NCBI RefSeq assembly: GCF_033100095.1
Contig: NZ_CP136921.1
Span: 1,458,501 to 1,522,500 of the forward strand
Reading direction: 5' to 3'
Origin: Diaphorobacter limosus
GTDB taxonomy: Bacteria; Pseudomonadota; Gammaproteobacteria; Burkholderiales; Burkholderiaceae_C
Length of the DNA: 64,000 nucleotides
The position numbers and the translations under genes are program-made. The notes under the pieces are model-generated. The model saw only the letters and a list, made by a program, of their open reading frames with translations. It did no database searches and was not told the origin of the DNA. Numbering within the stretch: the stretch's first letter is position 1; each line of letters starts with the position of its first letter. Positions 5,493 through 60,404 of the stretch are shown here, one piece after another.

Positions 5493-5500
5493 TGTATACA
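5493..5500. promoter_or_regulatory. Putative GntR operator TGTATACA upstream of the porin gene
   Basis: TTTTTGTATACACGCAA context, with the same 8-bp palindrome found at the purine-catabolism promoters in the 38-59 kb region. It lies about 165 nt upstream of the porin start. That the regulator binds here is an inference from the shared motif. Confidence 0.45.
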
Positions 5501-5663: not shown

Positions 5664-6689
5664 ATGAACCACAAGCTGATTGCCCTTGCCACCGCCGCGC
5701 TGTGCGCCGCCGGCGCCCACGCCCAATCCTCCGTCCAGGTCACCGGCCTGATGGATGTGTATGCCGGCTCCATGAAGATGGCCGGCGACGCCAAGCGCAA
5801 GTCGGTCGTCGACAGCGGCGGCATGACCACCTCGTGGTTCGGCTTCAAGGGCACGGAAGACCTGGGCGGCGGCCTCAAGGCCAGCTTCCAGCTGACCTCG
5901 TTCATCCAGGTCGATGACGGTACCCAGGGGCGCTTTCCGAAGGACACCTTTTTCTCGCGCGACGCCAACGTCAGCCTGTCGGGCGGTTTTGGCTCGGTGC
6001 TGCTGGGCCGCTGGATGGCGCCCAACTTCCTGCCCTCGGTCATCGGCAATCCGCTGGGCGACTCGTTCGAGTTCTCACCACTGATCCTGCACAAGAACGT
6101 GCCGCTGTTCAACGCCTCGAACTGGAAGGCCACCACGCCGTCCGACACCGGCTGGAGCAACCAGATCGTCTACAGCACGCCCAACATCGGCGGCTTCAAG
6201 GCCAACCTGCAATACCAGTTTGGCGAGCAGCCGGGCGACAACGGCAAGAAGAACATTGGCGCCAACTTCTTCTACTTTGGCGGCCCCCTGACGGTGACGG
6301 GCTATTACGAACGCGACCAGATCAGCAACCCCGCGGTTCCCAACACCTACCTGGGCACGACCAAGAAGGACTGGATGCTGGCCGCCGCCTATGACTTCAA
6401 GGCGGTCAAGCCCTACCTGAGCTATGGCCAGACCAAGGCCGACAACAGCCCGGACAAGGCCAAGACGCTGCAGCTTGGCGCATCCGCACCGCTGGGCGGC
6501 GGCAGCCTGCTGGCGTCCTGGGCCAAGACCGAGCTGTCGGCCTCCAACCTGGATCGCAAGACCTTGACCGTGGGCTACGACTACTACCTGTCCAAGCGCA
6601 CCGACGTGTACGCCATGTTCATGAACGACCGCATCACCAGCCAACCGACAGGCAACAGCTTCGGCGTGGGCATACGCCACCGCTTCTGA
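5664..6689 (+). CDS. Gram-negative porin (OmpC/Omp32-like, trimeric beta barrel)
   Basis: A 341-residue outer-membrane diffusion channel of the betaproteobacterial porin_4 family. A signal peptide ends at AHA|Q (residue 20); the mature N-terminus SSVQVTGLMDVYAG and the C-terminus FGVGIRHRF with terminal phenylalanine are typical of barrel porins. The ATG at 5664 is chosen because it gives the signal peptide and has CGGAGAC upstream; the frame is open earlier. A strong terminator follows. The TGTATACA motif upstream hints that it may serve purine uptake, which is not shown by the protein sequence. Confidence 0.92.
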   Translation: MNHKLIALATAALCAAGAHAQSSVQVTGLMDVYAGSMKMAGDAKRKSVVDSGGMTTSWFGFKGTEDLGGGLKASFQLTSFIQVDDGTQGRFPKDTFFSRDANVSLSGGFGSVLLGRWMAPNFLPSVIGNPLGDSFEFSPLILHKNVPLFNASNWKATTPSDTGWSNQIVYSTPNIGGFKANLQYQFGEQPGDNGKKNIGANFFYFGGPLTVTGYYERDQISNPAVPNTYLGTTKKDWMLAAAYDFKAVKPYLSYGQTKADNSPDKAKTLQLGASAPLGGGSLLASWAKTELSASNLDRKTLTVGYDYYLSKRTDVYAMFMNDRITSQPTGNSFGVGIRHRF

Positions 6690-6748: not shown

Positions 6749-6781
6749 GCCCCTGACCACACGAAGACGGAGAAGCCCCCC

Positions 6782-7309: not shown

Positions 7310-7367
7310 TACTATATTATTAATAGCTGTTTGCGCTTAACTACAGTGCGCTGCAGCCATTTTTGAT
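7310..7367. repeat. Palindromic intergenic repeat, copy R3
   Basis: Contains ACTAT, TTAATAGCTGTTTGCGCTTA and GCGCTGCAGCCATTTTTG in the standard order of this repeat family. It lies between the HIT gene and the MFS gene and may form part of the transcript boundary. Confidence 0.75.
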
Positions 7368-7420
7368 CGTATTGGCACGCCCTGCACGGCCGATCAGACT
7401 CTGCTACCCTCGCGCGCATC

Positions 7421-10282: not shown

Positions 10283-10334
10283 ATCCAGGGAAATCCATGA
10301 CCTGGTTGGCTACATCGACCGCATAAACCCTGGG

Positions 10335-10348
10335 TTGCGCTACCGCAA
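10335..10348. promoter_or_regulatory. Inverted repeat in the sox promoter region
   Basis: TTGCG-CTAC-CGCAA, a perfect 5-bp inverted repeat with 4-bp spacer, 46 nt upstream of the soxC ATG. Candidate operator for the sox operon; no sox regulator gene is present in the window. Confidence 0.3.
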
Positions 10349-10393
10349 TAGTAGATAACATCAGCGGTCGCTAATATATGGAGGGACAACCCC

Positions 10394-37357: not shown

Positions 37358-38575
37358 TCAGGGCGTAACCGTTGCCCCGCCCTCGTACCAACGCTTGAAG
37401 GTATCCACCTCCTCGGCCGACAGCGCGCCCGGGTTGCCAAACGGCATCTTGCGCAGCTGCACCACCTGCTGGTAGATCTGCTGGGCATGGCCCTTGACCT
37501 CGTCGGGGGTGTCGAACTTCACGTTCTTCTGCGCCACGGTATTCGCGCTGTGGCAGACCACGCAATGCTTTTGCATCACCGCCTGCACCTGGCCATAGCC
37601 GGCCGGCTGGGTAGCCGCGCCAGAGGCCATTGCAGCGGCGGCCTGCGGTGCCGGCTTGAGCCAGCCCAGCACCCCCAGCAGCACCAGCACGCCCACGGTG
37701 GCATAGGGCCAGGGATGGGTGTTGCGGCCCAGCTTGAAGCCATGGCGCATGACGAAGAACTGGCGGATGGCGGCACCGGCGAACATCATCAGGATCAGCA
37801 CCAGCCAGTTGAGCTCGTGGTTGTAGAGCCAGCCGTAGTGGTTGGACAGCATGGCAAACAGCACCGGCAGCGTGAAATAGGTGTTGTGCACGCTGCGCTG
37901 CTTGGCGCGCTTGCCATGCATCGGGTCGACCGGCTGCCCGGCCTTGAGCGCCGCCACCACCTTGCGCTGGCCGGGGATGATCCAGAAGAACACGTTGGCG
38001 CTCATGGACGTAGCCAGCATGGCCCCCATCAGCAGGAAGGCCGCCTGACCCGGAAAGATATGGCAGGCCAGGTAGGCCGCAATGCACACCAGCACCAGCA
38101 CCATGGCGCCGACGGTGGCGTCACCGTTGGGCTTTTGGCCAAAGGCGCGGCAGATGGCGTCATACAGCAGCCAGAACACCACCAGAAAGCCCAGCGCCGC
38201 GACAATGGCCATGGAGCTGGACATCAGCGGGTTGGATGGGCTCACCAGGTAGATGCCGGCATTCCACAGGTAGGACACCGTGAGCAGCGCAAAGCCGCTG
38301 AGCCAGGTGGTGTAGCTCTCCCAGTAGAACCAGTGCAAATGGTCGGGCATCTTCGGCGGCGACACGTTGAACTTGACAGGGTGGTAGAAGCCGCCGCCGT
38401 GCACGGCCCAGAGCTCGCCGCTGACGCCGTCGCGCTTCATGCCCTCGTCCTCGGGCGGCGTGAGGCTGCTGTCGAGAAAGACGAAATAGAACGACGAGCC
38501 GATCCAGGCGATGGCGGTGATGACATGCAACCAGCGCAGCAGCAGGTTGGCCCAGTCCAAAAGGTAGCTTTCCAT
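37358..38575 (-). CDS. puuD: Urate hydroxylase PuuD (membrane protein with C-terminal cytochrome c domain)
   Basis: A 405-residue integral membrane enzyme that oxidises urate to 5-hydroxyisourate and passes electrons to a cytochrome domain. About eight membrane helices cover residues 1-310; family-typical stretches are WLHVITAIAWIGSSFYF, AVHGGGFYHPVKF and PPKMPDHLHWFYWESYTTW. A C-terminal haem motif CVVCH is at 338-342. It belongs to the purine pathway with uraH and xdhC on the same strand. A variant TGTATGCA operator lies about 145 nt upstream. Confidence 0.92.
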   Translation of the reverse strand: MESYLLDWANLLLRWLHVITAIAWIGSSFYFVFLDSSLTPPEDEGMKRDGVSGELWAVHGGGFYHPVKFNVSPPKMPDHLHWFYWESYTTWLSGFALLTVSYLWNAGIYLVSPSNPLMSSSMAIVAALGFLVVFWLLYDAICRAFGQKPNGDATVGAMVLVLVCIAAYLACHIFPGQAAFLLMGAMLATSMSANVFFWIIPGQRKVVAALKAGQPVDPMHGKRAKQRSVHNTYFTLPVLFAMLSNHYGWLYNHELNWLVLILMMFAGAAIRQFFVMRHGFKLGRNTHPWPYATVGVLVLLGVLGWLKPAPQAAAAMASGAATQPAGYGQVQAVMQKHCVVCHSANTVAQKNVKFDTPDEVKGHAQQIYQQVVQLRKMPFGNPGALSAEEVDTFKRWYEGGATVTP

Positions 38576-38717: not shown

Positions 38718-38725
38718 TGTATGCA
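38718..38725. promoter_or_regulatory. Putative GntR operator variant upstream of puuD
   Basis: AAGTGTATGCAGTTTTT, one mismatch from the TGTATACA palindrome; flanks resemble the site upstream of ggt/uraH. It lies between xdhC and puuD, where a puuD promoter is expected. Confidence 0.45.
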
Positions 38726-40190: not shown

Positions 40191-40541
40191 TCACGAGCCG
40201 CGGTAGGTCGAGTAGCTCCACGGGCTGACCAACAGCGGCACGTGGTAATGCTGGTCGGTATGGGCCACGCCAAAGTCCAGGCTGACCTGGTTCAGAAAAT
40301 TGGGCTCGGGCAGCTGCACGCCGCGCGCCTTGAAGTAGCCCGCCACATCAAAGGTCAGGCGATAGGTACCGGCCTTCAGGCTGTGGTTGTCGAACAGCGG
40401 CGCATCGGTGCGCCCATCGTGGTTGAGCACCAGGCTCTTGAGCAAGGTGGCCTGGTCGCCCTGGGTGGCATACAGCGCAACGGCCATGCCCGCAGCGGGG
40501 CAACCATGCATGGTGTCTAGAACGTGGGTGCTGAGGCCCAT
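40191..40541 (-). CDS. uraH: 5-hydroxyisourate hydrolase (transthyretin-like)
   Basis: A 116-residue enzyme opening 5-hydroxyisourate to OHCU, the second step of urate breakdown. Diagnostic motifs: STHVLDTMHGCPA at the start, GRTD in the middle, and the C-terminal tetrapeptide YRGS that separates HIU hydrolase from transthyretin. AGGAGAC precedes ATG 40541. It is divergent from ggt, with a TGTATACA operator between them. Confidence 0.95.
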   Translation of the reverse strand: MGLSTHVLDTMHGCPAAGMAVALYATQGDQATLLKSLVLNHDGRTDAPLFDNHSLKAGTYRLTFDVAGYFKARGVQLPEPNFLNQVSLDFGVAHTDQHYHVPLLVSPWSYSTYRGS

Positions 40542-40590: not shown

Positions 40591-40598
40591 TGTATACA
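40591..40598. promoter_or_regulatory. Putative GntR operator between uraH and ggt
   Basis: AAGTGTATACAACTTTTGTACGC: a perfect TGTATACA palindrome plus a partial second half TTGTAC one turn away. It lies about 50 nt from the uraH start and 72 nt from ggt. Confidence 0.6.
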
Positions 40599-40669
40599 AC
40601 TTTTGTACGCTGTTGCCAGGTTTTGATTGGGCGTTTACCCTGCAGCCCTTCACATCCAAGGAGACATCG

Positions 40670-42448
40670 ATGCAGCTTCGCCCCACCCTACTGGCCGCCA
40701 GCCTGGCGCTGGCTCTTTTCGGCCTGGCCGGCTGCGGCAGCACGCCGCAGCAGCCATCGGCAGCCGCCACGGCCCAGCCCGGCGCAGCGCAGGCTGCCGC
40801 TGCGGCGTATGACTTCGACATGGACATCTTCCATCCGGTGGTCGCCAGCAACGGCATGGTGGCCAGCGAGCAGGAACTGGCCTCGCGCATCGGCCTGGAC
40901 ATCCTGAAGAGCGGCGGCAACGCCGTCGATGCCGCCGTGGCCATGGGCTTTGCGCTGGCCGTGGCCCTGCCGAACGCCGGCAACATCGGCGGCGGCGGTT
41001 TCATGATGGTGCACGACGCGAAGACGGGCAAAAGCGTGGCACTGGACTTCCGCGAGGTCGCGCCCGCCAAGGCCACGCGCGACATGTACCTGGACGCCCA
41101 GGGCAAGGTGATCGATGGCAAGTCGCTCTACACCCACTACGCCGTGGGCGTGCCCGGCACGGTGGCCGGCATGGAGCATGCCCTGAAGCGCTGGGGCACG
41201 CTGCCGCTGTCCAAGGTGGTGGCGCCGGCCGTGGCGCTGGCGGACAAGGGCTTTCCCGTCAGCGAGACCCTGGCCAAGATCCTGCAGCAGGAACAGAAGA
41301 ACATGGGCCGCTGGCCCGCCACCCAGGCCATCTTCTGGAAGAACGGCGCGCCACTCAAGCGCGGCGACCTGCTCACGCAAAAAGACCTGGCGCAGTCGCT
41401 GCGGCTGATTGGCGAGCAGGGCGCCAAGGCCTTCTACGAGGGCGCCATCGCCCAGAAAATAGCCGCCGAGATGGCTCCGCATGCCGGCGCGCTGTCGCTG
41501 CAGGATCTGAAGAACTACAAGGTGGTCGAGCGCGAGCCCGTGCGCGGCAGCTACCGCGGCTACCAGATCGTGACCATGCCGCCGCCGTCATCTGGCGGCG
41601 CGCACCTGATCCAGATCCTGAACATGATGGAGCGCTGGCCCATGAACCAATGGGGCGTGAACAGCGCGAAAAGCATGCACCACATGGCCGAGGGCATGAA
41701 GCTGGCCTATGCCGACCGCGCCGAATACCTGGGCGACCCGGACTTCGTGAAGGTGCCGCTCAAGGGCCTGATCTCCAAGCGCTACGCCGATCAGCTGGCC
41801 GCCGGCATCAACGCCACGCAGGCGCGCAGCGCAAAGGACATCAAGCCCGGCAAGCCCCAGCCGTATGAGAGCGACCAGACCACGCATTACTCGGTGGTGG
41901 ACAAGGCCGGCAACGCCGTGGCCGTGACCTATACGCTGAACACCAACTTCGGCAGCGGCATCGTCGCCAAGGGCACGGGCATCATGCTGAACAACGAGAT
42001 GGACGACTTCTCGGCCAAGCCCGGCGTGGCCAACGCCTATGGCCTGGTGGGCGGCGAGGCCAACGCCGTGGCCGCCGGCAAGCGCCCGCTGTCGTCGATG
42101 ACGCCCACGCTGGTGCTCAAGGACGGCAAGCCCACGCTGGTCACCGGCAGCCCCGGCGGCGCGCGCATCATCACCACGGTGCTGCAGACCGTCGTCAACA
42201 CCATTGACTTCGGCATGAACCCGGCAGAGGCCGCCGCCACGCCGCGCTTTCACCACCAGTGGACGCCCGACGAGCTGCGCATAGAAAAGGGCTTCAGCGC
42301 CGACACGCTGGCGCTGCTGCGCCAATGGGGGCACAACGTGGCCGTGAAACCCTCCATGGGCCGCACGCAGACCATTCAGATCCGGGACGGCATGCTGTAT
42401 GGCGCGTCCGACCCGCGCAACCCGGACGGGCAGACGCTGGGCTATTGA
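40670..42448 (+). CDS. ggt: Gamma-glutamyltransferase
   Basis: A 592-residue periplasmic N-terminal nucleophile enzyme hydrolysing glutathione and other gamma-glutamyl compounds. The leader ends LFGLAGC (lipobox, C22), so it is probably lipid-anchored. The self-cleavage/catalytic threonine is T404 in SDQTTHYSVVD; GGNAVDAAVAMGFAL and SPGGARIITTVLQTVVN are also family-typical. AAGGAGACATC precedes ATG 40670. It shares a divergent promoter and operator with uraH, suggesting co-regulation with purine use, perhaps for nitrogen scavenging. Confidence 0.94.
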   Translation: MQLRPTLLAASLALALFGLAGCGSTPQQPSAAATAQPGAAQAAAAAYDFDMDIFHPVVASNGMVASEQELASRIGLDILKSGGNAVDAAVAMGFALAVALPNAGNIGGGGFMMVHDAKTGKSVALDFREVAPAKATRDMYLDAQGKVIDGKSLYTHYAVGVPGTVAGMEHALKRWGTLPLSKVVAPAVALADKGFPVSETLAKILQQEQKNMGRWPATQAIFWKNGAPLKRGDLLTQKDLAQSLRLIGEQGAKAFYEGAIAQKIAAEMAPHAGALSLQDLKNYKVVEREPVRGSYRGYQIVTMPPPSSGGAHLIQILNMMERWPMNQWGVNSAKSMHHMAEGMKLAYADRAEYLGDPDFVKVPLKGLISKRYADQLAAGINATQARSAKDIKPGKPQPYESDQTTHYSVVDKAGNAVAVTYTLNTNFGSGIVAKGTGIMLNNEMDDFSAKPGVANAYGLVGGEANAVAAGKRPLSSMTPTLVLKDGKPTLVTGSPGGARIITTVLQTVVNTIDFGMNPAEAAATPRFHHQWTPDELRIEKGFSADTLALLRQWGHNVAVKPSMGRTQTIQIRDGMLYGASDPRNPDGQTLGY

Positions 42449-42514: not shown

Positions 42515-43429
42515 TCAGGCCGGCGCCTTCTGGCCGACCTCGAAATTCGCCATCTTCTCCAAAGCGCGCACCATGCCGGAATGGTCCCAGGCCGCGCCGC
42601 CATGGGCCACGCAGCTGTTGAACAGCTCCTGCGCCTGGGCCGTGTTGGGCAGCGAGACGCCGAGCTGGCGCGCGCTGGACAGGGCCAGGTTCAGGTCCTT
42701 CTGGTGCAGGGCGATGCGGAAGCCCGGATCAAAGGTGCGCTTGATCATGCGCTCGGCATGCACCTCCAGGATCTTGGACGAGGCAAAGCCGCCCAGCAGG
42801 GCCTCGCGCACGCGCGCCGGGTCCGCGCCGGCGCGGGACGCAAACAGCAGCGCCTCGGCCACGGCCTCGATGTTCAGGGCGACGATGATCTGGTTGGCCA
42901 CCTTGGCGGTCTGGCCGTCGCCATTGCCGCCGACCAGGGTGATGTTCTTGCCCATCTTCTCGAACAGCGGCTTGACGCGCTCGAACACGGCATCGGGCCC
43001 GCCAACCATGATGGACAGGGTGGCGTTCTTGGCGCCCACCTCGCCGCCCGAGACCGGGGCGTCCAGGTACTGCGCGCCCACGGCCTCGATGCGCTTGGCG
43101 AAATCCTTGGTGGCCACGGGGGAGATGGAGGACATGTCCACCACCACCTTGGCCGCGCTGCCCTTCAGGCCCGCCGCCACGCCATCCTCGGCGAACAGCA
43201 CGGCCTCCACGTCAGGGGTGTCGGGCAGCATCAGAAAGACGATGTCGGCGCGCTCGGCCACGCCGCGCGCCGTGGTGCATTGCGTGGCGCTGCTCTCGGC
43301 CAGCGCCGCGGGCAGCTTGCTGCGGGTGTGGATGAACAGCTGGTGGCCGGCGGCGATCAGGTGGCCACACATGGGCGCGCCCATGATGCCCAGGCCGATG
43401 AAACCGAGCTTGAGGGGGGATGAGGTCAT
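42515..43429 (-). CDS. glxR: 2-hydroxy-3-oxopropionate (tartronate semialdehyde) reductase
   Basis: A 304-residue beta-hydroxyacid dehydrogenase that reduces tartronate semialdehyde to D-glycerate. The NAD(P)-binding motif GFIGLGIMGAPM is at 9-20, substrate motif DAPVSGGEVGAKNATLS near 122, and the catalytic lysine region GQTAKVANQI near 170. AAGGAG precedes ATG 43429. It is third in the operon gcl-hyi-glxR, the classical glyoxylate-to-glycerate route. Confidence 0.93.
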   Translation of the reverse strand: MTSSPLKLGFIGLGIMGAPMCGHLIAAGHQLFIHTRSKLPAALAESSATQCTTARGVAERADIVFLMLPDTPDVEAVLFAEDGVAAGLKGSAAKVVVDMSSISPVATKDFAKRIEAVGAQYLDAPVSGGEVGAKNATLSIMVGGPDAVFERVKPLFEKMGKNITLVGGNGDGQTAKVANQIIVALNIEAVAEALLFASRAGADPARVREALLGGFASSKILEVHAERMIKRTFDPGFRIALHQKDLNLALSSARQLGVSLPNTAQAQELFNSCVAHGGAAWDHSGMVRALEKMANFEVGQKAPA

Positions 43430-43453
43430 GTGGTTTTCTCCTTGTCTCTTGGA

Positions 43454-43510
43454 ATAATCAAAATATATAGCTGCTTGCGCTTATCAGGCGGGCGCTAGAG
43501 CCTTTTTTCC
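43454..43510. repeat. Palindromic repeat copy R8, overlapping the 3' end of hyi
   Basis: ATCAAAATATATAGCTGC then TTGCGCTTATC, GGGCGCTAGAGCCTTTTTT: standard block order. The hyi stop codon at 43484-43486 lies inside it, so the repeat encodes the last codons of the protein. Confidence 0.8.
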
Positions 43511-44284
43511 TGCCAATTTTTCCAGCCACCCCAGGCCGGCCTCGGTACCCTGGGCGGGCTTGTACTCGCAGCCCACCCAGCCGGCGTAACCGATGCGGTC
43601 GAGGTGCGCGAACAGGAAGGGGTAGTTGATCTCGCCCGTGCCCGGCTCGTTGCGGCCGGGGTTGTCGGCCAGCTGCACATGGGCGATGCGCGCCAGGTTC
43701 TTCTGCAGCGTGGCGGCCAGCTCGCCCTCCACGCGCTGGGCGTGGTAGATGTCGTACTGCACGAAGGCGTTGTCGGCGCCCACCTCGTCGAGGATGGCAA
43801 TCGCCTGATCCGTGCGGTTCAGGTAGAAGCCCGGAATGTCGAAGGGGTTGATGGGCTCGATCAGCAGGCGCAGCTTGGCCATCTTCAGCGCGGCGGCGGC
43901 AAAGCGCAGGTTCTCGACAAAGGTACGGCGCAGCACGGCGGCGTCCACGCCGGCCGGGGCCTTGCCGGCCAGGCAGTTGAGCTGCGGCACGCCCAGGGCG
44001 TGGGCATAGCTCACGGCCTTGGCCACGCCGGCACGGAATTCATCCACGCGCTGCGGGTCGCAGGCGATGCCGCGCTCGCCGGCATCCCAGTCGCCCGCGG
44101 GCAGGTTGTGCAGCACGATCTGCAGGCCGGTGGCATCCAGGCGCTCCTTGATCTCCTCGACCGTGTGGGCGTAGGGGAAGAGGAACTCCACGGCTTCAAA
44201 ACCGGCCTGGGCGGCGCGCTCGAAGCGATCGAGGAAGGGCACCTCGGTGAACAGCATGCTGAGGTTGGCGGCAAAACGGGGCAT
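43484..44284 (-). CDS. hyi: Hydroxypyruvate isomerase
   Basis: A 266-residue TIM-barrel enzyme interconverting hydroxypyruvate and tartronate semialdehyde. Family motifs: MPRFAANLSMLFTEVPFLDR at the start, LVEPIN-type metal site seen as LLIEPINPFDIPG, QYDIYHAQR and GCEYKPA near the end. TGGAGACC precedes ATG 44284. Its last residues (after EKLAGKK) and stop codon derive from repeat copy R8, a C-terminal extension of a few residues. It lies between gcl and glxR on the same strand. Confidence 0.94.
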   Translation of the reverse strand: MPRFAANLSMLFTEVPFLDRFERAAQAGFEAVEFLFPYAHTVEEIKERLDATGLQIVLHNLPAGDWDAGERGIACDPQRVDEFRAGVAKAVSYAHALGVPQLNCLAGKAPAGVDAAVLRRTFVENLRFAAAALKMAKLRLLIEPINPFDIPGFYLNRTDQAIAILDEVGADNAFVQYDIYHAQRVEGELAATLQKNLARIAHVQLADNPGRNEPGTGEINYPFLFAHLDRIGYAGWVGCEYKPAQGTEAGLGWLEKLAGKKALAPA

Positions 44285-44310
44285 ATCGGGTCTCCAGTCA
44301 AAAAAATACG

Positions 44311-46101
<1,791 letters not shown>

Positions 46102-49313: not shown

Positions 49314-50636
49314 CTACAACACCAGGATGGCGCGAAAGTCGTTCACATTGGTGTTCGTAGGCCCGGTGAACACCAGATCGCCCAGAGGTTCGAAAAAGCC
49401 ATAGGCATCGTTGCGATCCAGGTGGTCGCCGATGCGCTGGCCGTTTTGTGCCGCGCGCGCCAGGGTGTCGGGTGCCACGCGGGCGCCCGCGTTGTCCTCC
49501 ACGCCGTCTATGCCGTCGGTGTCGGCCGCCAGCGCCCAGACACCCTCCTGCCCCTGCAGCGCCTGGGCCAGGCCCAGGCAGAACTCGCCGGCACGCCCGC
49601 CGCGCCCCTTGGCGGCGCCGGGCTGCCTGGGGCGTATCGTGACCGTGGTTTCCCCGCCCGAAAGAATCACGCAGGGCCGCGCAAACGGCTCATCGCGCCG
49701 GGCCACGGCGCGCGCCAGCGCCGCATGCACCTTGCCCACCTCGCGCGACTCGCCCTCGATCTCGTCGGACAGGATATGCGCCGCAATGCCCGCGGCCTGC
49801 GCCGCCCGGGCCGCGGCCTGCAGTGACTGCTGGGGCGTGGCGATCAGGTGCACCTGGTGACCGGCAAAGCGCGCGTCACCGGGCTTCGGGGTTTCCAGCG
49901 CGCCAGCCTGCAGCGCGGCGCGCACGGCATCGGGCACGGCAATTTGGTAGCGCTGCAGAATTGCCAGCGCGTCGGCGCAGGTTGAGGCATCGGCCACCGT
50001 GGGCCCGCTGGCGATGATGGAGGGGTCGTCGCCCGGCACGTCGCTGATGGTCAGCGTGACCACCCGGGCCGGGTGGCAGGCGGCGGCCAGGCGGCCGCCC
50101 TTGATGCGCGAGAGATGCTTGCGCACACAGTTCATCTCGCCAATGGCGGCGCCGCTTTCCAGCAAGGCCTGGTTGATGCGCTGCTTCTCTGCCAGATCCA
50201 GACCCTCGGCCGGCAGGGTCAAGAGGGCCGAGCCGCCGCCAGAGATCAGGCACAGCACCAGATCGTCCTCGGTCAGCCCTTGCGTCAGCGCCAGCATGCG
50301 CTCGGCAGCCAGCAAGCCGGCGGCATCCGGCACGGGGTGAGCGGCCTCAACGAGTTCGATACGCTGCGCCAGCCCCTCGGGGCGCGGCGGAATATGGTGG
50401 TAGCGCGTAACCACCAGGCCGGACAGCGGCGCCTCCTGCGGCCACAGCGCTTCAAGCGCCTGGCACATCGAACCGCCGGCCTTGCCGGCGCCCAGCACCA
50501 CGGTACGGCCCTTCGGAACCGGCGGCAGATGCTGCCCCATGCTGTGCAGCGGCTGTGCGCGCTGCACCGCCACGCGGTACAGGTCGAGCAGAAAGACCTG
50601 GGGGTTTGCGATGGGCGTGTACGGTGTCGCGGTCAT
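49314..50636 (-). CDS. ttuD: Glycerate 2-kinase (MOFRL/TtuD type)
   Basis: A 440-residue kinase forming 2-phosphoglycerate from D-glycerate, the last step of the glyoxylate/tartrate routes. N-terminal motif RTVVLGAGKAGGSMCQALE, LCLISGGGSALLTLP and the C-terminal MOFRL domain with ALAADTDGIDGVEDNAGA. AGGAGAC precedes ATG 50636. The family was first named hydroxypyruvate reductase; sequence supports kinase function. It is the third gene of a minus-strand operon after the tartrate-dehydrogenase-like and Bug genes. Confidence 0.9.
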   Translation of the reverse strand: MTATPYTPIANPQVFLLDLYRVAVQRAQPLHSMGQHLPPVPKGRTVVLGAGKAGGSMCQALEALWPQEAPLSGLVVTRYHHIPPRPEGLAQRIELVEAAHPVPDAAGLLAAERMLALTQGLTEDDLVLCLISGGGSALLTLPAEGLDLAEKQRINQALLESGAAIGEMNCVRKHLSRIKGGRLAAACHPARVVTLTISDVPGDDPSIIASGPTVADASTCADALAILQRYQIAVPDAVRAALQAGALETPKPGDARFAGHQVHLIATPQQSLQAAARAAQAAGIAAHILSDEIEGESREVGKVHAALARAVARRDEPFARPCVILSGGETTVTIRPRQPGAAKGRGGRAGEFCLGLAQALQGQEGVWALAADTDGIDGVEDNAGARVAPDTLARAAQNGQRIGDHLDRNDAYGFFEPLGDLVFTGPTNTNVNDFRAILVL

Positions 50637-50715
50637 GGCGTTGTGTCTCCTGCCGGACATTATCGAAGCACGCATTCCGCGCAAACCCTGCAGGCAAGTC
50701 AAAACTGCTTCGCCC

Positions 50716-51696
50716 TCAATCCAGCGATACCTTGGCGTCCTTGACTAGTTTGGCGAAGCGCGCCGTGTCATCCCTAATCTGCCGCGCCATCTGCTCGGGC
50801 GTGTTACCGATGGCGTCAGCGCCTATGTCGTCCATCTTCTTGCGGAACTCGGGCGAGTGGATGATCCTGACCATGTCCGCATTCAGGCGTGTCACCACCT
50901 CCCTGGGCGTGCCCGCGGGCGCAAGCATGCCGAACCAAGTGCCCATGTCGAAGCCCTTGAGGCCCGCCTCGTCGAGCGTGGGCACATCGGGCAGCGCCAC
51001 CGAGCGCCTGGCCGTGGTCACGGCCAGCGCGCGCAGCTTGCCGGCCTTGATGTGGGGCAGCACCGGCGTGACGGTGTCGAACGACATGCTGATCTGTCCG
51101 CCCAGCAGGTCGGTGGTCAGCGGACCGCTGCCTTTGTAGGGCACGTGCAACAGCTCAACGCCGCCCATGCCCTCGAACTGCGCGCCTATCAGGTGCTGGC
51201 CCGTGCCCGTGCCGTTGGAGCCGTAGGTGAGCTTGCCGGGCTGGGCCTTGGCGAGCGCCAGCAGCTCCTGCACGGTCTTGGCGGGCAGTTGCGGGTTCAC
51301 GACCAGCACGTTGGGAACCAGGGCCACGGTGGTGATGGGGGTCAGGTCCTTCTCGAAGTCGTAGCCCAGCTTGCGATAGACGCTGGTGGCGATGGTGTGG
51401 TGCACCGCGCCCATGAGCAAGGTGTAGCCATCGGGCTTGGCCTTGGCCACGTAGTCCGCGCCCAGCGTGGCGCCGGCTCCAGGCTTGTTTTCCACCACCA
51501 CGGGCTGGCCCAGGGTCTTGGACAGCTCCTGTCCTAGCGCGCGCGCCAGCACGTCGGTCGTGCCGCCGGCCGGGAACGGCACGATGATGCTCACCGGCCG
51601 GCTTGGCCAGACCTGCGCCCAGGCAGATGGCAATGCCAGCCCCGCTGCGGCTGCGGCCAGGGTGCCCAGCAGGGCGCGTTTACTCCAATGCGTCAT
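50716..51696 (-). CDS. Bug/TctC-family tripartite tricarboxylate transporter substrate-binding protein
   Basis: A 326-residue periplasmic solute-binding protein. The signal peptide ends at AWA|Q (residue 27). Typical marks are WPSRPVSIIVPFPAGGTTDVLAR, VVENKPGAGATLGADYVAKA (in part) and LTYGSNGTGTGQHL. TAAGGAGAC precedes ATG 51696. No TctAB membrane partners are nearby, as is common for Bug proteins. Operon context suggests a tartrate or similar dicarboxylate ligand. Confidence 0.9.
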   Translation of the reverse strand: MTHWSKRALLGTLAAAAAGLALPSAWAQVWPSRPVSIIVPFPAGGTTDVLARALGQELSKTLGQPVVVENKPGAGATLGADYVAKAKPDGYTLLMGAVHHTIATSVYRKLGYDFEKDLTPITTVALVPNVLVVNPQLPAKTVQELLALAKAQPGKLTYGSNGTGTGQHLIGAQFEGMGGVELLHVPYKGSGPLTTDLLGGQISMSFDTVTPVLPHIKAGKLRALAVTTARRSVALPDVPTLDEAGLKGFDMGTWFGMLAPAGTPREVVTRLNADMVRIIHSPEFRKKMDDIGADAIGNTPEQMARQIRDDTARFAKLVKDAKVSLD

Positions 51697-51731
51697 GGTG
51701 TGTCTCCTTATGGTGTTGTCACGGTGGGGAT

Positions 51732-52832
51732 TCAGGCCACCACTGCGCTTGAAGCCACGGCGCTCGACGCCAGATAGCGGCAGACCGCGTCCGTCACCTG
51801 GCGCGTGGTGGCCCTGCCGCCCAGGTCGCCCGTGTGCAGAGCCGGGTCGGCCGTCACCTGCTCCACCGCGCACATCAGGCGCTGCGCGGCGGCCTGCTCG
51901 CCCAGGTGCTCCAGCAGCATCACGCAGCTCCAGAACGTGCCCACGGGATTGGCCAGGCCCTTGCCCATGATGTCGAAGGCCGAGCCGTGGATGGGCTCGA
52001 ACATGCTGGGGTAGCGGCGCTCGGGGTCGATGTTGCCGGTGGGCGCGATCCCGAGGCTGCCGGCCAACGCCGCGGCCAGGTCGCTCAGGATATCGGCGTG
52101 CAGGTTGGTGGCGACTATGGTGTCCAGCGTGGCCGGGCGGTTGACCATGCGCGCGGTGGCGGCGTCCACCAGCTCCTTGTCCCACTGCACATCGGGGAAC
52201 TCCTGGCCGATCTGCGCGGCGATCTCGTCCCACATCACCATGGCGTGGCGCTGGGCGTTGCTCTTGGTGATGACGGTGAGCAGCTTGCGCGGACGCGACT
52301 CTGCCAAGCGGAAGGCAAAGCGCATGATGCGCTCCACCCCGGCGCGGGTCATCATGCTCACGTCGGTGGCCGCCTCCAGCGGGTGGCCCTGGTGCACGCG
52401 GCCGCCCACGCCGGCGTATTCGCCCTCCGAGTTCTCGCGCACGATGACCCAGTCCAGATCCTGGGGGCCGCAGCGCTTGAGCGGCGCGTCGATGCCCGGC
52501 AGGATGCGCGTGGGCCGCACGTTGGCGTACTGATCGAAGCCCTGGCAGATCTTCAGGCGCAGGCCCCACAGCGTGATGTGGTCGGGAATGTGCGGGTCGC
52601 CCGCCGATCCGAACAGGATGGCGTCCTGGTTCTTGAGCTCGTTCAGGCCATCGGTGGGCATCATCTCGCCGTGCGCGCGGTACCAGTCGCCGCCCCAGCC
52701 GTAGCTAGTGAACTCGAAGCCCAGGCCGGGCTGCGATGCGGCCAGGGCCTGTAGCACGGACTGGCCTGCGGGAATGACTTCCTTGCCAATGCCGTCGCCG
52801 GGAATGCAGGCAATGCGATAGGTCTTGCTCAT
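51732..52832 (-). CDS. Tartrate dehydrogenase/decarboxylase or D-malate dehydrogenase
   Basis: A 366-residue decarboxylating dehydrogenase of the isocitrate/isopropylmalate family. Motifs: YRIACIPGDGIGKEVIPAG at the start, the substrate arginine loop VRENSEGEYAGVGGR, and the C-terminal NAD site EPIHGSAFDIMGKGLANP. The ENSEGEY loop is typical of TtuC/DmlA rather than LeuB. ATG 52832 is preceded by CAAGGAGCG. With the glycerate kinase downstream it suggests tartrate to glycerate to 2-phosphoglycerate. Confidence 0.87.
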   Translation of the reverse strand: MSKTYRIACIPGDGIGKEVIPAGQSVLQALAASQPGLGFEFTSYGWGGDWYRAHGEMMPTDGLNELKNQDAILFGSAGDPHIPDHITLWGLRLKICQGFDQYANVRPTRILPGIDAPLKRCGPQDLDWVIVRENSEGEYAGVGGRVHQGHPLEAATDVSMMTRAGVERIMRFAFRLAESRPRKLLTVITKSNAQRHAMVMWDEIAAQIGQEFPDVQWDKELVDAATARMVNRPATLDTIVATNLHADILSDLAAALAGSLGIAPTGNIDPERRYPSMFEPIHGSAFDIMGKGLANPVGTFWSCVMLLEHLGEQAAAQRLMCAVEQVTADPALHTGDLGGRATTRQVTDAVCRYLASSAVASSAVVA

Positions 52833-52935
52833 GGGAATGCTCGCTCCTTGGTAGAAATCCGGGCCACGCGATGCCGTGGCATGAACCCCGAATCTATCCA
52901 TGGAAGGCAGGCCTCGAATGCCGCTAAAGTAATGC

Positions 52936-52960
52936 CATTGTTCACTTTCATTCAACAATG
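52936..52960. promoter_or_regulatory. LysR-type operator overlapping the LysR start codon
   Basis: CATTGTT-N11-AACAATG: perfect 7-bp arms with T-N11-A geometry. The right arm contains the ATG of the divergent LysR gene, implying direct autorepression. Confidence 0.6.
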
Positions 52961-53872: not shown

Positions 53873-53889
53873 ATACGGTTCACAAAAAC

Positions 53890-53897
53890 TGTATACA
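53890..53897. promoter_or_regulatory. Putative GntR operator upstream of the GntR-puuE operon
   Basis: AAACTGTATACAAACCAG with a perfect TGTATACA core, 22 nt upstream of the GntR start. This is the expected position for autoregulation. Confidence 0.6.
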
Positions 53898-53918
53898 AAC
53901 CAGTGTTCCGCCGCTAAG

Positions 53919-54596
53919 ATGGTGCGCATGGAAACCTCCACCACCAGTTTCATCGTCGAGAACCTGACCCGCGCCATCGTGGAGCACCGCCTGTTGCCCG
54001 GCACCAAGCTGGCCGAGCAAAAGCTGGCGGATCACTTTGGCGTCTCGCGCACGCTGGTGCGCCAGGCCTTGTTCCAACTGTCGCAAAACCGGCTCATCAA
54101 GCTGGAGCCGGCGCGCGGCGCATTCGTGGCCACGCCCTCGGTGGCTGAGGCGCGCCAGGTATTCGCCGTGCGCCGCATGCTGGAGGCCGAGATGGTGCGC
54201 GCCTTCATGGCCCAGAGCACGCCGGCCAAGATCCGCAGCCTGCGCCAGCATGTGGCCGCCGAGAAAAAGGCCATGGAGCGCGAGGACGTAGGCCAGCGCA
54301 CCGAGCTGCTGGGCGACTTTCATGTGCGCATGGCCGAGCTCATGGGCAACGAGGTGCTGGCCCAGCTGCTGGGCGAACTGATCTCACGCTGCGCCCTGAT
54401 CACGCTGATGTACCAGTCCAACGTGGCCGCCGAGCATTCGCACGACGAGCATGCCGACATCGTCGAGGCGCTGGCCGGCGGCAACGCCGACCATGCCGTG
54501 CAGCTCATGCGCCAGCACCTGGACAACGTCGAGGCGGGCCTGACCTTCGACCGCGACGTTCCGACCAGCGACCTTTCCATGGCCCTTTCTGCCTGA
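53919..54596 (+). CDS. GntR/FadR-family (FCD domain) regulator of purine catabolism
   Basis: A 225-residue repressor-type protein. The winged helix has LAEQKLADHFGVSRTLVRQALFQLSQNRLI. The C-terminal FCD ligand domain is all helical with metal-type residues (DFHVRMAELMGN, and EHSHDEHADIVEALAGG). Start ATG 53919 or 53928; neither has a strong ribosome site. It is first in a plus-strand series GntR-puuE-uraD/aah-M20. The conserved TGTATACA upstream of itself and other purine genes is its likely operator; the effector (allantoin, urate or similar) is unknown. Confidence 0.87.
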   Translation: MVRMETSTTSFIVENLTRAIVEHRLLPGTKLAEQKLADHFGVSRTLVRQALFQLSQNRLIKLEPARGAFVATPSVAEARQVFAVRRMLEAEMVRAFMAQSTPAKIRSLRQHVAAEKKAMEREDVGQRTELLGDFHVRMAELMGNEVLAQLLGELISRCALITLMYQSNVAAEHSHDEHADIVEALAGGNADHAVQLMRQHLDNVEAGLTFDRDVPTSDLSMALSA

Positions 54597-54619
54597 GAAC
54601 TGCAGCACGCTCCAACACC

Positions 54620-55570
54620 ATGACCTACGACGCCACTGCCCCCTACCCCCGCGACCTGATCGGCTACGGCCGCACGCCCCCGCAGCCCCAGTGGCCGGGC
54701 CAGGCGCGCGTGGCCGTGCAGTTTGTCCTCAACTACGAGGAAGGCGGCGAGAACTGCGTGCTGCATGGCGACGCCGCCAGCGAGCAGTTTTTGTCCGAAA
54801 TGTTCAACCCGGCCGCCTACCCCGAGCGCCACATGAGCATGGAGGGCATCTACGAATACGGCTCGCGTGCCGGCGTGTGGCGCATCCTGCGCGAGTTCGA
54901 GCGCCGCGGCCTGCCGCTCACCGTCTTTGGCGTCGCCACGGCGCTGCAAAGACACCGCGATGTGACGGCCGCGTTCACCGAGCTGGGCCACGAGATCGCC
55001 TGCCATGGCCTCAAATGGATCCACTACCAGGGCGTGCCCGAGGAGGTGGAGCGCGCCCACATGGCGGAGGCCATGCAGATCATCCAGGGTCTGACCGGCA
55101 GCCGCCCGCTGGGCTGGTACACGGGCCGCGACAGCCCGCGCACGCGCCGCCTGGTGGCCGACCATGGCGGCTTCGAGTACGACAGCGACTACTACGGCGA
55201 CGACCTGCCGTTCTGGATGAAGGTCCAGAAGACCGACGGCAGCGCCGCGCACCAGCTCATCGTGCCCTACACGCTGGACGTGAACGACATGCGCTTTGCG
55301 CTGCCCCAGGGCTACTCGCACGCCGACCCGTTCTTTCAGTACATGAAGGACAGCTTCGACGCCCTGTATGCCGAAGGCGACCCGGCCGGCGACAACGCGC
55401 CCAAGATGATGAGCATAGGCATGCACTGCCGCCTGCTGGGCAAGCCCGGACGCATCACCGCGCTGCAGCGCTTTCTGGACCATATCCAGGGCCACAACAA
55501 GGTCTGGATCTGCCGGCGCATCGACATCGCGCGCCACTGGAAAGAGCGCTTTCCCGCACCAATTTTGTAA
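54620..55570 (+). CDS. puuE: Allantoinase PuuE (polysaccharide-deacetylase fold)
   Basis: A 316-residue metal-independent-type allantoinase converting allantoin to allantoate. It is unrelated to the amidohydrolase-type AllB. Family motifs: YPRDLIGYGRTPPQPQWPG at the start, NYEEGGENCVLHGD, YEYGSRAGVWR, EIACHGLKWIHYQ and GWYTGRDSPRTRRLV. It follows the GntR gene by 23 nt and precedes uraD/aah; repeat copy R9 fills the gap to the latter. Confidence 0.95.
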   Translation: MTYDATAPYPRDLIGYGRTPPQPQWPGQARVAVQFVLNYEEGGENCVLHGDAASEQFLSEMFNPAAYPERHMSMEGIYEYGSRAGVWRILREFERRGLPLTVFGVATALQRHRDVTAAFTELGHEIACHGLKWIHYQGVPEEVERAHMAEAMQIIQGLTGSRPLGWYTGRDSPRTRRLVADHGGFEYDSDYYGDDLPFWMKVQKTDGSAAHQLIVPYTLDVNDMRFALPQGYSHADPFFQYMKDSFDALYAEGDPAGDNAPKMMSIGMHCRLLGKPGRITALQRFLDHIQGHNKVWICRRIDIARHWKERFPAPIL

Positions 55571-55626
55571 AGAAAACAGGCTCTAGCGCTTATCCATCAA
55601 GCGCTGACAGCTATCATTTTAATAGG
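55571..55626. repeat. Palindromic repeat copy R9 in the puuE-uraD intergenic gap
   Basis: AGGCTCTAGCGCTTATC then ATCAAGCGCTGACAGCTATC and TTTAATAG. It starts right after the puuE stop and ends a few bases before the GTG start of the next gene, so the ribosome site is next to or within it. Confidence 0.8.
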
Positions 55627-55633
55627 ATACACC

Positions 55634-57406
<1,773 letters not shown>

Positions 57407-57420
57407 AGAATGCAGTCCCC

Positions 57421-58674
57421 ATGAGCAACTACCAACAACTGGACGCCTGGATAGACCAGCATTTCGACGAGCAGGTGCAGTTCCTGCAGGCCCTGGTGCG
57501 CGTGCCCACCGACACGCCACCGGGCAACAACGCGCCGCACGCCGAACGCACCGCCGAACTCATCAAAGACTACGGCTTCGAGGCCGAGAAACATGCCGTG
57601 CCCCAGGCCGAGGTGCAGGCCTATGGCATGGAGTCGATCACCAATCTCATCGTGCGCCGCCCCTACGGCAACGGTGGCCGCACCGTGGCGCTGAACGCCC
57701 ATGGCGACGTGGTGCCCCCGGGCGAGGGCTGGAGCCACGACCCCTACGGCGCCGAGATTGTCGATGGCGCCATGTACGGCCGCGCCACCGCCGTGAGCAA
57801 GAGCGACTTCTCCACCTTCACCTTCGCCGTGCGCGCGCTCGAGGCCGTGGCCAGGCCCACCAAGGGCACGATCGAGCTGCACTTCACCTACGACGAGGAG
57901 TTTGGCGGCCTGCTCGGCCCCGGCTGGCTGCTGGAGCAAGGCCTGACCAAGCCGGACCTGATGATCGCCGCAGGCTTCAGCTACGAGGTCGTCACCGCAC
58001 ACAACGGCTGCCTGCAGATGGAAGTCACGGTGCACGGCAAGATGGCCCACGCCGCGGTGCCGCACACGGGCGTCGACGCGCTGCAGGGCGCCACGGCCAT
58101 CATGAATGCGCTGTACGCCGAGAACGTGAAGTACCAGCAGGTCACGTCCAAGGTCGCCGGCATCAAGCACCCCTACCTGAACATCGGCCGCATCGAGGGC
58201 GGCACCAACACCAACGTGATTCCCGGCAAGGTGGTGCTGAAGATCGACCGCCGCATGATCCCCGAGGAAAACCCGGCCGAGGTCGAGGCCAGCATCCACG
58301 CCGTCATCGCCAAGGCGGTGCAGGACTTCAACCAGCAGCGCGACTACCAGGGCCAGGACGCCGTGCGCACCGACATCAGGCGCATCCTGCTGGCCAACGC
58401 CATGACGCCGCTGCCCGGCAACGCGCCGCTGGTGGACGCCATCCAGAAGCATGGCGAGGCGGTGTTTGGCGAAAAGCCCGCCGCCGTGGGCACGCCGCTG
58501 TACACCGACGTGCGCCTGTACGTGGAGCGCGGCATTCCCGGCGTGATCTACGGCGCCGGCCCGCGCACCGTGCTGGAGAGCCACGCCAAGCGGGCCGACG
58601 AGCGCGTACAGCTGGAAGACCTGCGCCGCGCCACCAAGGTCGTGGCACGGGCGCTGCATGACTTGATGGCCTGA
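57421..58674 (+). CDS. M20-family metallohydrolase (ArgE/DapE type), substrate unknown
   Basis: A 417-residue dizinc amidohydrolase. Metal-site motifs are ALNAHGDVVPPGEGW, TYDEEFGGLLGPGW and, near the end, a histidine (ESHAKRADERV). VRVPTDTPPGNNAPHAERTA marks the family. It is the last gene of the GntR-puuE-uraD/aah operon, 14 nt downstream. No ureidoglycolate lyase or hydrolase is otherwise present, so it is a candidate for that step or for a carbamoyl/N-acyl by-product; the sequence alone does not decide. Confidence 0.85.
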   Translation: MSNYQQLDAWIDQHFDEQVQFLQALVRVPTDTPPGNNAPHAERTAELIKDYGFEAEKHAVPQAEVQAYGMESITNLIVRRPYGNGGRTVALNAHGDVVPPGEGWSHDPYGAEIVDGAMYGRATAVSKSDFSTFTFAVRALEAVARPTKGTIELHFTYDEEFGGLLGPGWLLEQGLTKPDLMIAAGFSYEVVTAHNGCLQMEVTVHGKMAHAAVPHTGVDALQGATAIMNALYAENVKYQQVTSKVAGIKHPYLNIGRIEGGTNTNVIPGKVVLKIDRRMIPEENPAEVEASIHAVIAKAVQDFNQQRDYQGQDAVRTDIRRILLANAMTPLPGNAPLVDAIQKHGEAVFGEKPAAVGTPLYTDVRLYVERGIPGVIYGAGPRTVLESHAKRADERVQLEDLRRATKVVARALHDLMA

Positions 58675-58698
58675 TCAGCTATCCATCCGCAATCACCC

Positions 58699-58724
58699 AG
58701 CCCGCTGCTGCAGCGGGCTTTTTT
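58699..58724 (+). terminator. Intrinsic terminator of the puuE operon
   Basis: AGCCCGCTG, loop CTG, CAGCGGGCT followed by T-run, 25 nt after the M20 stop. Confidence 0.88.
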
Positions 58725-58811
58725 GTTGCAACAAACCGTGCCCTCCGCAGCTACAGCCGGGGTTTGAACGCCGGCCTTTCGGGTTACTACCGAATCAACA
58801 ATGCTTATAGG

Positions 58812-58821
58812 GTGTATACAC
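58812..58821. promoter_or_regulatory. Putative GntR operator upstream of the xanthine permease
   Basis: GTGTATACAC, a perfect 10-bp palindrome and the most symmetrical copy in the window, about 95 nt before the permease ATG. Confidence 0.6.
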
Positions 58822-58916
58822 TTTTTCCATACGAAAGCGCTTGCCACCTGACGCGCGCGTATGCAAGCACATCCATCAGCCCTTGAGCCCGCCCATATTC
58901 CTGGAGACAGCCCCCC

Positions 58917-60404
58917 ATGACCACCGCAGTCCACCCCGTCGATGAGACATTACCCCTGGGTCGCCTCACGGCCCTGGGTTTGCAACATGTGCTGGTGATG
59001 TATGCCGGCGCCGTCGCCGTGCCGCTGATCGTCGGCCGCGCGCTGAACCTGCCGCCCGAACAGGTGGCGCTGCTGATCTCGGCCGACCTGTTCGTCTGCG
59101 GCCTGGTCACGCTGATCCAGGCCTGGGGCGCCACGCAGTGGTTCGGCATCAAGCTGCCGGTGATGATGGGCGTGACCTTTGCCGCCGTCGCCCCCATGGT
59201 GTCGATGGCGCAGACCACTGGCGGCCAGGCCGGGGCGGGCTTGATCTTTGGCGCGGTGATCGGCGCGGGCGTGATCTCGATATTGATCGCGCCCATGATG
59301 AGCCGCATGCTGCGCTTCTTTCCGCCGGTGGTCACCGGCACCATCATCGCGGTCATCGGCATCAGCCTGATGCGCGTCGGCATCAACTGGATCTTTGGCA
59401 ACCCGGTCGGCCCCACTGCGCCCTCCGTGCCCAACCCGGAACACCTGAAATGGCTGGCCGAGGCCCAGGCCGCCGCCGGCGCGCCGGGCTCGTCCCTGGC
59501 TCCCGTGCCCAAGGGCTTTGCCATCGTGCCCACCATTCCCAACCCCAAGTACGCCGACCTGACGGGCGTGGGCATCTCGGGCATCGTGCTGTTGACCATC
59601 TTGCTCGTCGCCCGCTTTGGCAAGGGCTTCTGGGCCAATATCTCGGTGCTGCTGGGCATTGCCGTGGGCGGGGTGCTCACCGCTGCCATGGGCCTGATGA
59701 ACTTTGACAAGGTGGGCAAGGCGCAGTGGTTCGACATCGTGCTGCCGTTCCAGATCGCCATGCCGGTCTTCGACCCCATCCTGATCCTGACCATGACCCT
59801 GGTGATGATCGTGGTCATGATCGAATCCACCGGCATGTTCCTGGCCCTGGGCGAGATGACCGACAAGGAAATCTCGCAGGAAGACCTCAAGCGCGGCCTG
59901 CGCACCGATGGCCTGGGCACACTGATCGGCGGCATCTTCAACACCTTCCCCTACACCAGCTTCTCGCAGAACGTGGGCCTGGTGGCGGTCACCGGCGTCA
60001 AGAGCCGCTGGGTCTGCGTGGCCGGTGGCGTGATCCTGATCATTCTCGGCGTGCTGCCCAAGATGGCGGCGCTGGTCGAATCCCTGCCCACCGTGGTGCT
60101 CGGCGGCGCCGGCCTGGTGATGTTCGGCATGGTCGCCGCCACCGGCATACGCATCCTGTCCAAGGTGGACTTCCAGCACAACCGCAACAACGCCATGATC
60201 GTTGCCGTCTCCATCGGCGTGGGCATGATCCCGCTGGTGGCGCCCAACTTCCGCCAGTGGATGCCGCATTCCATCCACCCGCTGATCGAGTCCGGCATCC
60301 TGCTGTCCTCGCTGGCCGCCGTGGCGCTGAACGTGTTCTTCAATGGCGCCAAGCATGACGCCCGCGCCGCCATCGAGGCCGCCAAGCAGGCCGAGGCGCA
60401 CTGA
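58917..60404 (+). CDS. NCS2-family xanthine/uric acid permease
   Basis: A 495-residue proton symporter with about 12-14 membrane segments. Family motifs: LGLQHVLVMYAGAVAVPLIVG at the start, the substrate motif FSQNVGLVAVTGVKSRWVC (Q/N-V-G-x4-T) and the conserved glutamate helix VVMIESTGMFLALGEM. GGAGACAG precedes ATG 58917. Sequence and context fit xanthine or urate more than uracil. It brings in the substrate for the catabolic genes on the left and carries the same operator motif. Confidence 0.92.
   Translation: MTTAVHPVDETLPLGRLTALGLQHVLVMYAGAVAVPLIVGRALNLPPEQVALLISADLFVCGLVTLIQAWGATQWFGIKLPVMMGVTFAAVAPMVSMAQTTGGQAGAGLIFGAVIGAGVISILIAPMMSRMLRFFPPVVTGTIIAVIGISLMRVGINWIFGNPVGPTAPSVPNPEHLKWLAEAQAAAGAPGSSLAPVPKGFAIVPTIPNPKYADLTGVGISGIVLLTILLVARFGKGFWANISVLLGIAVGGVLTAAMGLMNFDKVGKAQWFDIVLPFQIAMPVFDPILILTMTLVMIVVMIESTGMFLALGEMTDKEISQEDLKRGLRTDGLGTLIGGIFNTFPYTSFSQNVGLVAVTGVKSRWVCVAGGVILIILGVLPKMAALVESLPTVVLGGAGLVMFGMVAATGIRILSKVDFQHNRNNAMIVAVSIGVGMIPLVAPNFRQWMPHSIHPLIESGILLSSLAAVALNVFFNGAKHDARAAIEAAKQAEAH

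Follow-up and report, generated by a model that had tools for sequence, protein, structure and literature searches.

A conserved palindrome before purine and ureide genes of Diaphorobacter limosus and its predicted GntR-FCD regulator

The recurrence of one short palindrome, TGTATACA, before several purine and ureide genes of Diaphorobacter limosus raises the question of whether a single local regulator reads it and how far its regulon reaches. The stretch of contig NZ_CP136921.1 analysed here, 64,000 nt in length and called the window below, was studied together with the whole genome and with related loci. The analysis indicated that the FCD-type GntR protein encoded at 53928-54596 very probably controls purine uptake and the urate-to-ureide steps locally, acting through TGTATACA. 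The operon of the regulator and the adjoining permease gene, with their predicted operators, are given below.

53890..53897: predicted core operator TGTATACA of the gntR-puuE-uraD/allC-M20 operon
53928..54596, plus strand: gntR, FCD-type GntR regulator of 222 aa (Pfam GntR 56 bits, FCD 83 bits)
54620..55570, plus strand: puuE, allantoinase (TIGR03212 504.5 bits, cut-off 424.6)
55634..57406, plus strand: OHCU decarboxylase (UraD) fused to an allantoate amidohydrolase-like domain (Pfam, NCBIfam)
57421..58674, plus strand: M20 (ArgE/DapE-like) hydrolase, whose gene ends the conserved operon (profile matches)
58813..58820: predicted core operator TGTATACA; the xanthine permease starts 104 bp downstream
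58917..60404, plus strand: xanP, xanthine permease of PbuX type, NCS2 (Xan_ur_permease; TIGR03173 513 bits, cut-off 414)

The gntR product exceeded the cut-offs of both PF00392 (the N-terminal GntR winged helix-turn-helix domain) and PF07729 (the C-terminal FCD domain). Residues R41, R45, H132, H175 and H197 were invariant in 80/80 relatives and in 7/7 distant homologues; the three histidines presumably have a metal role, as in other FCD proteins. The closest NCBIfam model was phnR_burk (TIGR03338), of which the protein is not a member (131 bits vs a cut-off of 271.5). In listings of such loci the gene adjoining allantoinase is called only 'GntR family transcriptional regulator'. The suggestion that the regulator gene comes first in its own operon was borne out, gntR leading a gntR-puuE-uraD/allC-M20 order which is kept in relatives wherever the retrieved DNA reaches far enough. 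The gntR-puuE adjacency was seen in the window and in 79/80 relatives, and the stretch of the remaining one (L028) ends inside gntR. A replacement of ureidoglycolate lyase by the M20 hydrolase was considered and rejected: no PF04115 match was found in this genome, yet the M20 gene is present in 4/5 genomes having one, and the absence patterns therefore give the idea no support.

The palindrome was found perfect at 40591, 53890 and 58813, where the initial annotation had placed it, and also at 5493. Shuffled windows held 0.09 copies on average, and 0/100 shuffles reached four. The one-mismatch site reported at 38718 was found as well and is TGTATGCA. Allowing up to one mismatch gave six words in the window vs 3.6 expected; since 20/100 shuffles reach six, the 38718 site is not significant alone and rests on relatives. 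The genome (4,099,615 bases) contains eight perfect copies vs two of the reversed word, and with up to one mismatch 224 words vs 185 for the reversed control; therefore only the perfect TGTATACA is informative by itself. An extended pattern with three mismatches was uninformative in this genome (210 matches vs 183 for the reversed control). The window, although only 1.6% of the total sequence, holds four of the eight perfect copies (binomial p = 4e-6).

Three of these eight copies stand before purine/ureide genes in the window, one before a second NCS2 permease gene and one before a porin gene. It had been proposed that a genome scan without purine enrichment would speak against the regulon; the scan revealed enrichment, with 4/8 copies before purine/ureide or NCS2 permease genes. 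By manual reading, the copies at C1:1613599 and C1:1875004 are within reading frames, and that at C1:3766218 is beside an aadA-like gene. These three unexplained copies are comparable to background, since the reversed control word gives a similar number (two). The gene near the last copy (L008:1690-2562, C1 ~3.766 Mb) is by eye an aminoglycoside nucleotidyltransferase-like open reading frame of aadA type, with the stray TGTATACA ~190 bp past its stop.

The conservation of the site was followed in 80 loci at 75-100% identity, the best of 475 in which a scan of genome contigs had detected a relative of the regulator; nearly all those named to genus belong to Comamonadaceae. Labels and distances of uraH are approximate in the scans of locus gene order, copy census, promoter geometry and gntR/xanP/puuD offsets. 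Within 350 bases before gntR, TGTATACA was perfect in 77/80 loci and had one mismatch in L031, L040 and L046; L012 offers only 179 bases. The next commonest palindromic 8-mer there occurred in 28/80. The copy lies 36-46 bases before the gntR start codon in 76/77 loci and at 107 in L050, whose gntR start may be misplaced. The 80 loci together (1.47 Mb) contained 171 copies of TGTATACA; among palindromes of equal G+C content the runner-up had 48 and the median was 2. Of the TGTATACA copies, 94 were located outside gntR promoters, and no matched gene contained any of these. Chance origin of the sites is ruled out by the enrichment in the window, the genome and the related loci.

The further predicted targets within the ureide region of the window are as follows.

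40191..40541, minus strand: uraH, 5-hydroxyisourate hydrolase, transthyretin family (PF00576 128 bits)
40591..40598: predicted core operator TGTATACA between the divergent uraH and ggt
40670..42448, plus strand: ggt, gamma-glutamyltransferase (Pfam gamma-glutamyltranspeptidase)
38718..38725: weaker predicted operator TGTATGCA, one mismatch, 143 bp upstream of puuD
37358..38575, minus strand: puuD, membrane urate hydroxylase (PF06181, Urate_ox_N, 420 bits), with a weak C-terminal cytochrome match

The 250 bases before each gene were tallied in the 80 loci, dropping matches that begin after residue 25 or have fewer than 200 bases upstream; no ggt passed. A perfect copy preceded uraH in 70/70 cases, xanP in 33/34 and gntR in 76/79, the other three having one mismatch. 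For puuD the copy was perfect in 33/52 and had one mismatch in 13/52. Perfect copies were absent before puuE (0/78), uraD/allC (0/75), M20 (0/72), xdhC (0/53), maeB (0/32), lysR1 (0/21) and lysR2 (0/12), and further one-mismatch words were seen before uraD/allC (1), xdhC (2), maeB (2) and ttuD (1). The reversed control word was perfect before no gene and occurred with one mismatch in 18 gene-loci. The copies of uraH were common with a divergent gntR in 56/70 cases and separate in 14/70, while those of xanP and puuD were never shared, so that gntR, uraH, xanP and puuD together rest on 156 distinct copies. The candidate target ttuD was discarded, as all 11 copies found among its 48 loci are the gntR copy of the divergent neighbour.

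The copy at 40591 had been assigned to uraH and ggt jointly, and the assignment held for uraH and failed for ggt. The ggt match was present in 19 loci, five of them cut before its start. Among the 14 left with upstream DNA, the ten with ggt beside uraH had a copy within 400 bp and the four with ggt elsewhere (L037, L045, L075, L080) had none. The copy thus follows uraH and not ggt in relatives; ggt was rejected as the intended target and probably just happens to lie next to the uraH operator.

Two further genes of the genus were added to the predicted targets, of which the first is in the window.

5493..5500: perfect core TGTATACA, 171 bp upstream of the porin, with support within the genus
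5664..6689, plus strand: porin, Porin_4 family (PF13609 197 bits)

The 300 bp upstream of the porin held a perfect copy in three and a one-mismatch copy in three of six genomes of the genus (this one included), at other positions. The porin at 5664 may be an outer-membrane member of the regulon. The second gene is another Xan_ur_permease (NCS2), 380 kb from gntR, with TGTATACA upstream at C1:1131856. This permease (E<=1e-150) was found in 4/59 genomes, all of this genus and including this one, and a perfect site stood 126-172 bp upstream in 4/4. In the survey of porin and second-permease upstream sites one stretch (L209) was mis-cut at a contig end. Additional TGTATACA sites of relatives precede NCS1 transporters (L052, and a same-looking copy in L086 and L088), a sodium:dicarboxylate symporter (L048) and, by eye, an ABC transporter (L060, L065). 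In L081 (5002-7911) the site precedes an Asp/Glu/hydantoin racemase gene which adjoins an NCS1-like transporter and a second, 45%-identical GntR, and L084 has a copy at the same place.

The co-occurrence of regulator (E<=1e-60) and extended motif (TGTATACANTTT) was calculated in 200 genomes drawn from the family. Both were present in 133 genomes, the regulator alone in 9, the motif alone in 11 and neither in 47 (p = 6e-26, uncorrected for relatedness), and the reversed pattern matched 11/200 genomes by manual count. A class-wide draw of 274 genomes gave seven with a regulator match at E<=1e-35, three of this family (this genome included) and four outside it, the latter with five homologues of 35-41% identity. 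The neighbours of these distant homologues were guaD/azgA-like genes (L190, by eye), puuE (L191, L192), uraD with puuD and xanP matches (L195) and uraD with an NCS2 match (L193). TGTATACA was present in 3/5 of their stretches, and two stretches with in-family paralogues (L145, L194) contained none.

The operator and promoter anatomy was then read from the window and its relatives, with the following elements.

53878..53883: second box GTTCAC (GT-N2-AC), 13 bp upstream of the core GTATAC at gntR (similarity peak at offset 13 in relatives)
58826..58833: second box TCCATACG, 13 bp from the core at the xanthine permease (offset 13 has the highest mean match)
40604..40611: second box TGTACGCT, 13 bp from the core at uraH (from the sequence)
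53915..53920, plus strand: probable -10 hexamer TAAGAT, 4/6 match to TATAAT, 7 nt before the ATG (from the geometry in relatives)

The operator consensus was about CAAAAGTGTATACACTTTTTG, and the arms flanking the core are palindromic. With duplicates removed, similarity to the word rose again at offset 13, to 4.0/8 for gntR and 4.8/8 for xanP; for uraH it was 3.7 over all copies and 4.7 for those unshared with gntR, where offset 11 was nearly equal (4.6). The second box begins 9 nt from the core centre, and passages of PMC4494728 describe GntR-family sites with additional half-sites 7-12 nt from the centre. At gntR the core provides TATACA, and 17 bp separate it from the downstream hexamer at 53915. 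A match of at least 5/6 to TATAAT occurred downstream of the site in 73/77 gntR promoters of relatives, the -10-like hexamer lying 6-7 nt before the ATG in 69/77 and 17-18 bp from TATACA in 67/73. After deduplication the 6-7 nt geometry was seen in 34/37 promoters, whereas 500 shuffles gave 0.45 on average and never more than 4. A Shine-Dalgarno-like word preceded gntR in 1/77 relatives and none was seen before gntR of the window; the word preceded xanP in 30/30, gcl in 21/21, glxR in 17/17, uraD/allC in 44/57, puuD in 25/52, M20 in 5/32 and puuE in 3/38. This anatomy suggests that the gntR mRNA is probably leaderless.

In the mechanism proposed from these data, a GntR dimer would bind TGTATACA, and the second GT-box 13 bp away, one and a quarter helical turns, would aid the binding. 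The predicted targets are the gntR-puuE-uraD/allC-M20 operon, the xanthine permease, uraH, puuD, the NCS2 permease at C1:1.13 Mb and probably the porin. The core would fill the -35 position of the gntR promoter, the bound protein blocking RNA polymerase, and this would result in negative autoregulation of a leaderless mRNA with its -10 hexamer 6-7 nt from the ATG. An intermediate of the ureide pathway (allantoin, allantoate or a near relative) may release GntR from its sites.

Several observations weigh against this reading in whole or in part. The 56 uraH copies common with gntR are not independent, as they are the same copy. At puuD, 6/52 relatives have no copy of up to one mismatch within 250 bp (L061 has a perfect one at 278), and the offset scan of relatives gave no second-box peak. 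Porin loci outside the genus had a perfect or one-mismatch copy in 0/11. The regulator lacked the extended motif in 9/142 genomes, and the motif occurred without the regulator in 11/58, three of these 11 being <80% complete. A consensus promoter scan of the gntR upstream region found no promoter, the -10 hexamer of the window itself matches at only 4/6, and the missing Shine-Dalgarno word alone proves little since puuD, M20 and puuE are often without one. An overlap with the -35 position would also fit a dual repressor/activator. The xdhAB-lysR-azgA-guaD genes at 3.69 Mb have no upstream site of up to one mismatch; the first oxidation steps are therefore outside the regulon, and the term 'purine regulon' overstates its reach.

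The xdhAB-azgA-guaD genes were accordingly rejected as members: by manual reading the only two words of up to one mismatch in this 16-kb stretch are internal to guaD and xdhB. By eye this region (L155, C1:3686000-3702000) is a cluster of xdhA, xdhB, lysR, an azgA-type permease and a guaD-like gene, which is probably under its own LysR. The genes gcl, hyi and glxR were likewise rejected, with a copy upstream in 0/21, 0/18 and 0/17 loci. In the window, 42515-46101 and 49314-52958 contain glxR, hyi and gcl and the ttuD, tctC and ttuC-like genes beside the ureide genes without an operator; these are glyoxylate/tartronate and tartrate-type branches. The initial annotation had proposed one regulator and one motif for at least four promoters covering uptake and catabolic steps. 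Phylogenetic footprinting upheld this for uptake and ureide genes; ggt is to be excluded, xdhAB/guaD and the glyoxylate genes fall outside, and the sites at 5493 and C1:1131856 are to be added.

The alternative that best survives accepts the regulon and makes GntR a dual regulator which represses without inducer and activates with it, perhaps together with a nitrogen-control protein. Passages of PMC4609117 cite HpxS of Klebsiella among activators or repressor/activators, and the two boxes 13 bp apart and the varying site-to-gene distances among the targets are in accordance with such a role. The core at gntR is the -35 position itself, which favours repression, and no activator-type spacing common to the targets was noticed; the dual role is thus considered unlikely.

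The sites could also be bound by a regulator other than this GntR, namely its 41%-identical GntR-FCD paralogue at C1:2171973, near an NCS1 nucleobase transporter (L151, C1:2164000-2180000), or a LysR of the window. Some relatives have a 39-45% paralogue near xanP or puuD. The core is moreover unspecific: according to passages of PMC7797058, Atu1419 of Agrobacterium fabrum (FCD, VanR subfamily) binds ATGTATACAT, as shown by electrophoretic mobility shift assay and crystal structure, with Arg45 reading the G, and acts as a repressor of its own gene. As this protein of another pathway binds the same core, binding of TGTATACA by an FCD protein is credible, and the core alone cannot name the regulator. 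The likeness extends to a recognition-helix arginine (the helix here holds the invariant R41 and R45) and to palindromes which overlap or lie between promoter boxes. Atu1419 differs, in the same passages, in serving hydroxycinnamate breakdown, in its effector methylenetetrahydrofolate and in forming a tetramer able to loop sites spaced 190 bp. The 16 kb around the paralogue (L151) contained no perfect TGTATACA, the motif accompanies gntR in 77/80 loci and 133/142 genomes, and lysR2 passed the tally filter in only 12/80 loci, all of which renders another regulator improbable.

It is very improbable that TGTATACA is a core promoter element kept for transcription with no regulator involved, since, despite TATACA lying 17-18 bp from a -10-like hexamer at gntR, no such fixed spacing was seen by eye at xanP, puuD and uraH (part of the sites viewed), the 94 further copies precede few functionally linked genes and not promoters generally, and the flanking arms are palindromic.

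The closest known counterpart of the GntR-FCD protein is of interest for its naming. HpxS, reportedly described by Guzman et al. in 2011, is said to be the GntR regulator of the Klebsiella hpxSAB allantoin genes. Its gene leads an operon with allantoinase and has tandem sites S1/S2; HpxS responds to allantoin, with co-control by NAC. The two regulators share the GntR type and a gene beside allantoinase. The regulon here differs by adding puuD, uraH, two NCS2 permeases and the UraD-AllC fusion, and the regulator is HpxS-like and is not named HpxS. Local control of purine or allantoin catabolism is also exerted by AllR/AllS, PucR and HucR/XdhR, which belong to other families (IclR/LysR, PucR, MarR) and use other operators.

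The GT-AT-AC core fits the GntR-family operator consensus NyGTNxACNy given in PMC4494728. Passages of that paper place HpxS among FadR-type groups with a 2-nt GT-AC spacing, the same as in the core here, and mention regulons deposited in RegPrecise. The GntR, HypR, MdcY, PrpR and UxuR groups of the FadR subfamily in the same passages have the same fold class and GT-N2-AC palindromes; they are different regulators. In the parts of PMC5343134 consulted, a survey of 33 groups, no purine-catabolism GntR was noticed. The literature search found no work joining a GntR with a xanthine/allantoin palindrome regulon, although RegPrecise or the PMC4494728 supplement may list the motif already, and none on GntR with purine catabolism in Comamonadaceae or with uric acid, allantoin or xanthine permease; for TGTATACA with a GntR it returned the Atu1419 work only. 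FCD switches of such a kind, and even the TGTATACA word, are already known. It is tentatively suggested, as a possibility on the lower side, that this is a family-wide urate/ureide regulator unlike HpxS in targets and sensing. Its mRNA would be leaderless and self-repressed, with the operator as the -35 and with a second box that is phased at 13 bp and graded from one target to the next; uptake through an outer-membrane porin and two NCS2 permeases would be induced along with the ring-opening steps, and xanthine oxidation and glyoxylate use would stand outside.

The 'GntR family transcriptional regulator' genes beside allantoinase can thereby be assigned a predicted regulon whose operator is nearly invariant and whose targets are named. 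In particular genera a link to purine use is predicted for second permeases, NCS1 transporters, a racemase and a porin, and gntR becomes a clear candidate for autoregulation of a leaderless mRNA by an operator placed over the -35 position. Adjoining the left end of the window (L010 ~4809-12784, C1 ~1.453-1.461 Mb), an adenosine-deaminase-like open reading frame with a stretch like a group II intron reverse transcriptase in front was seen by eye, and the same region contains, also by eye, a BMP-type nucleoside ABC transporter cluster.

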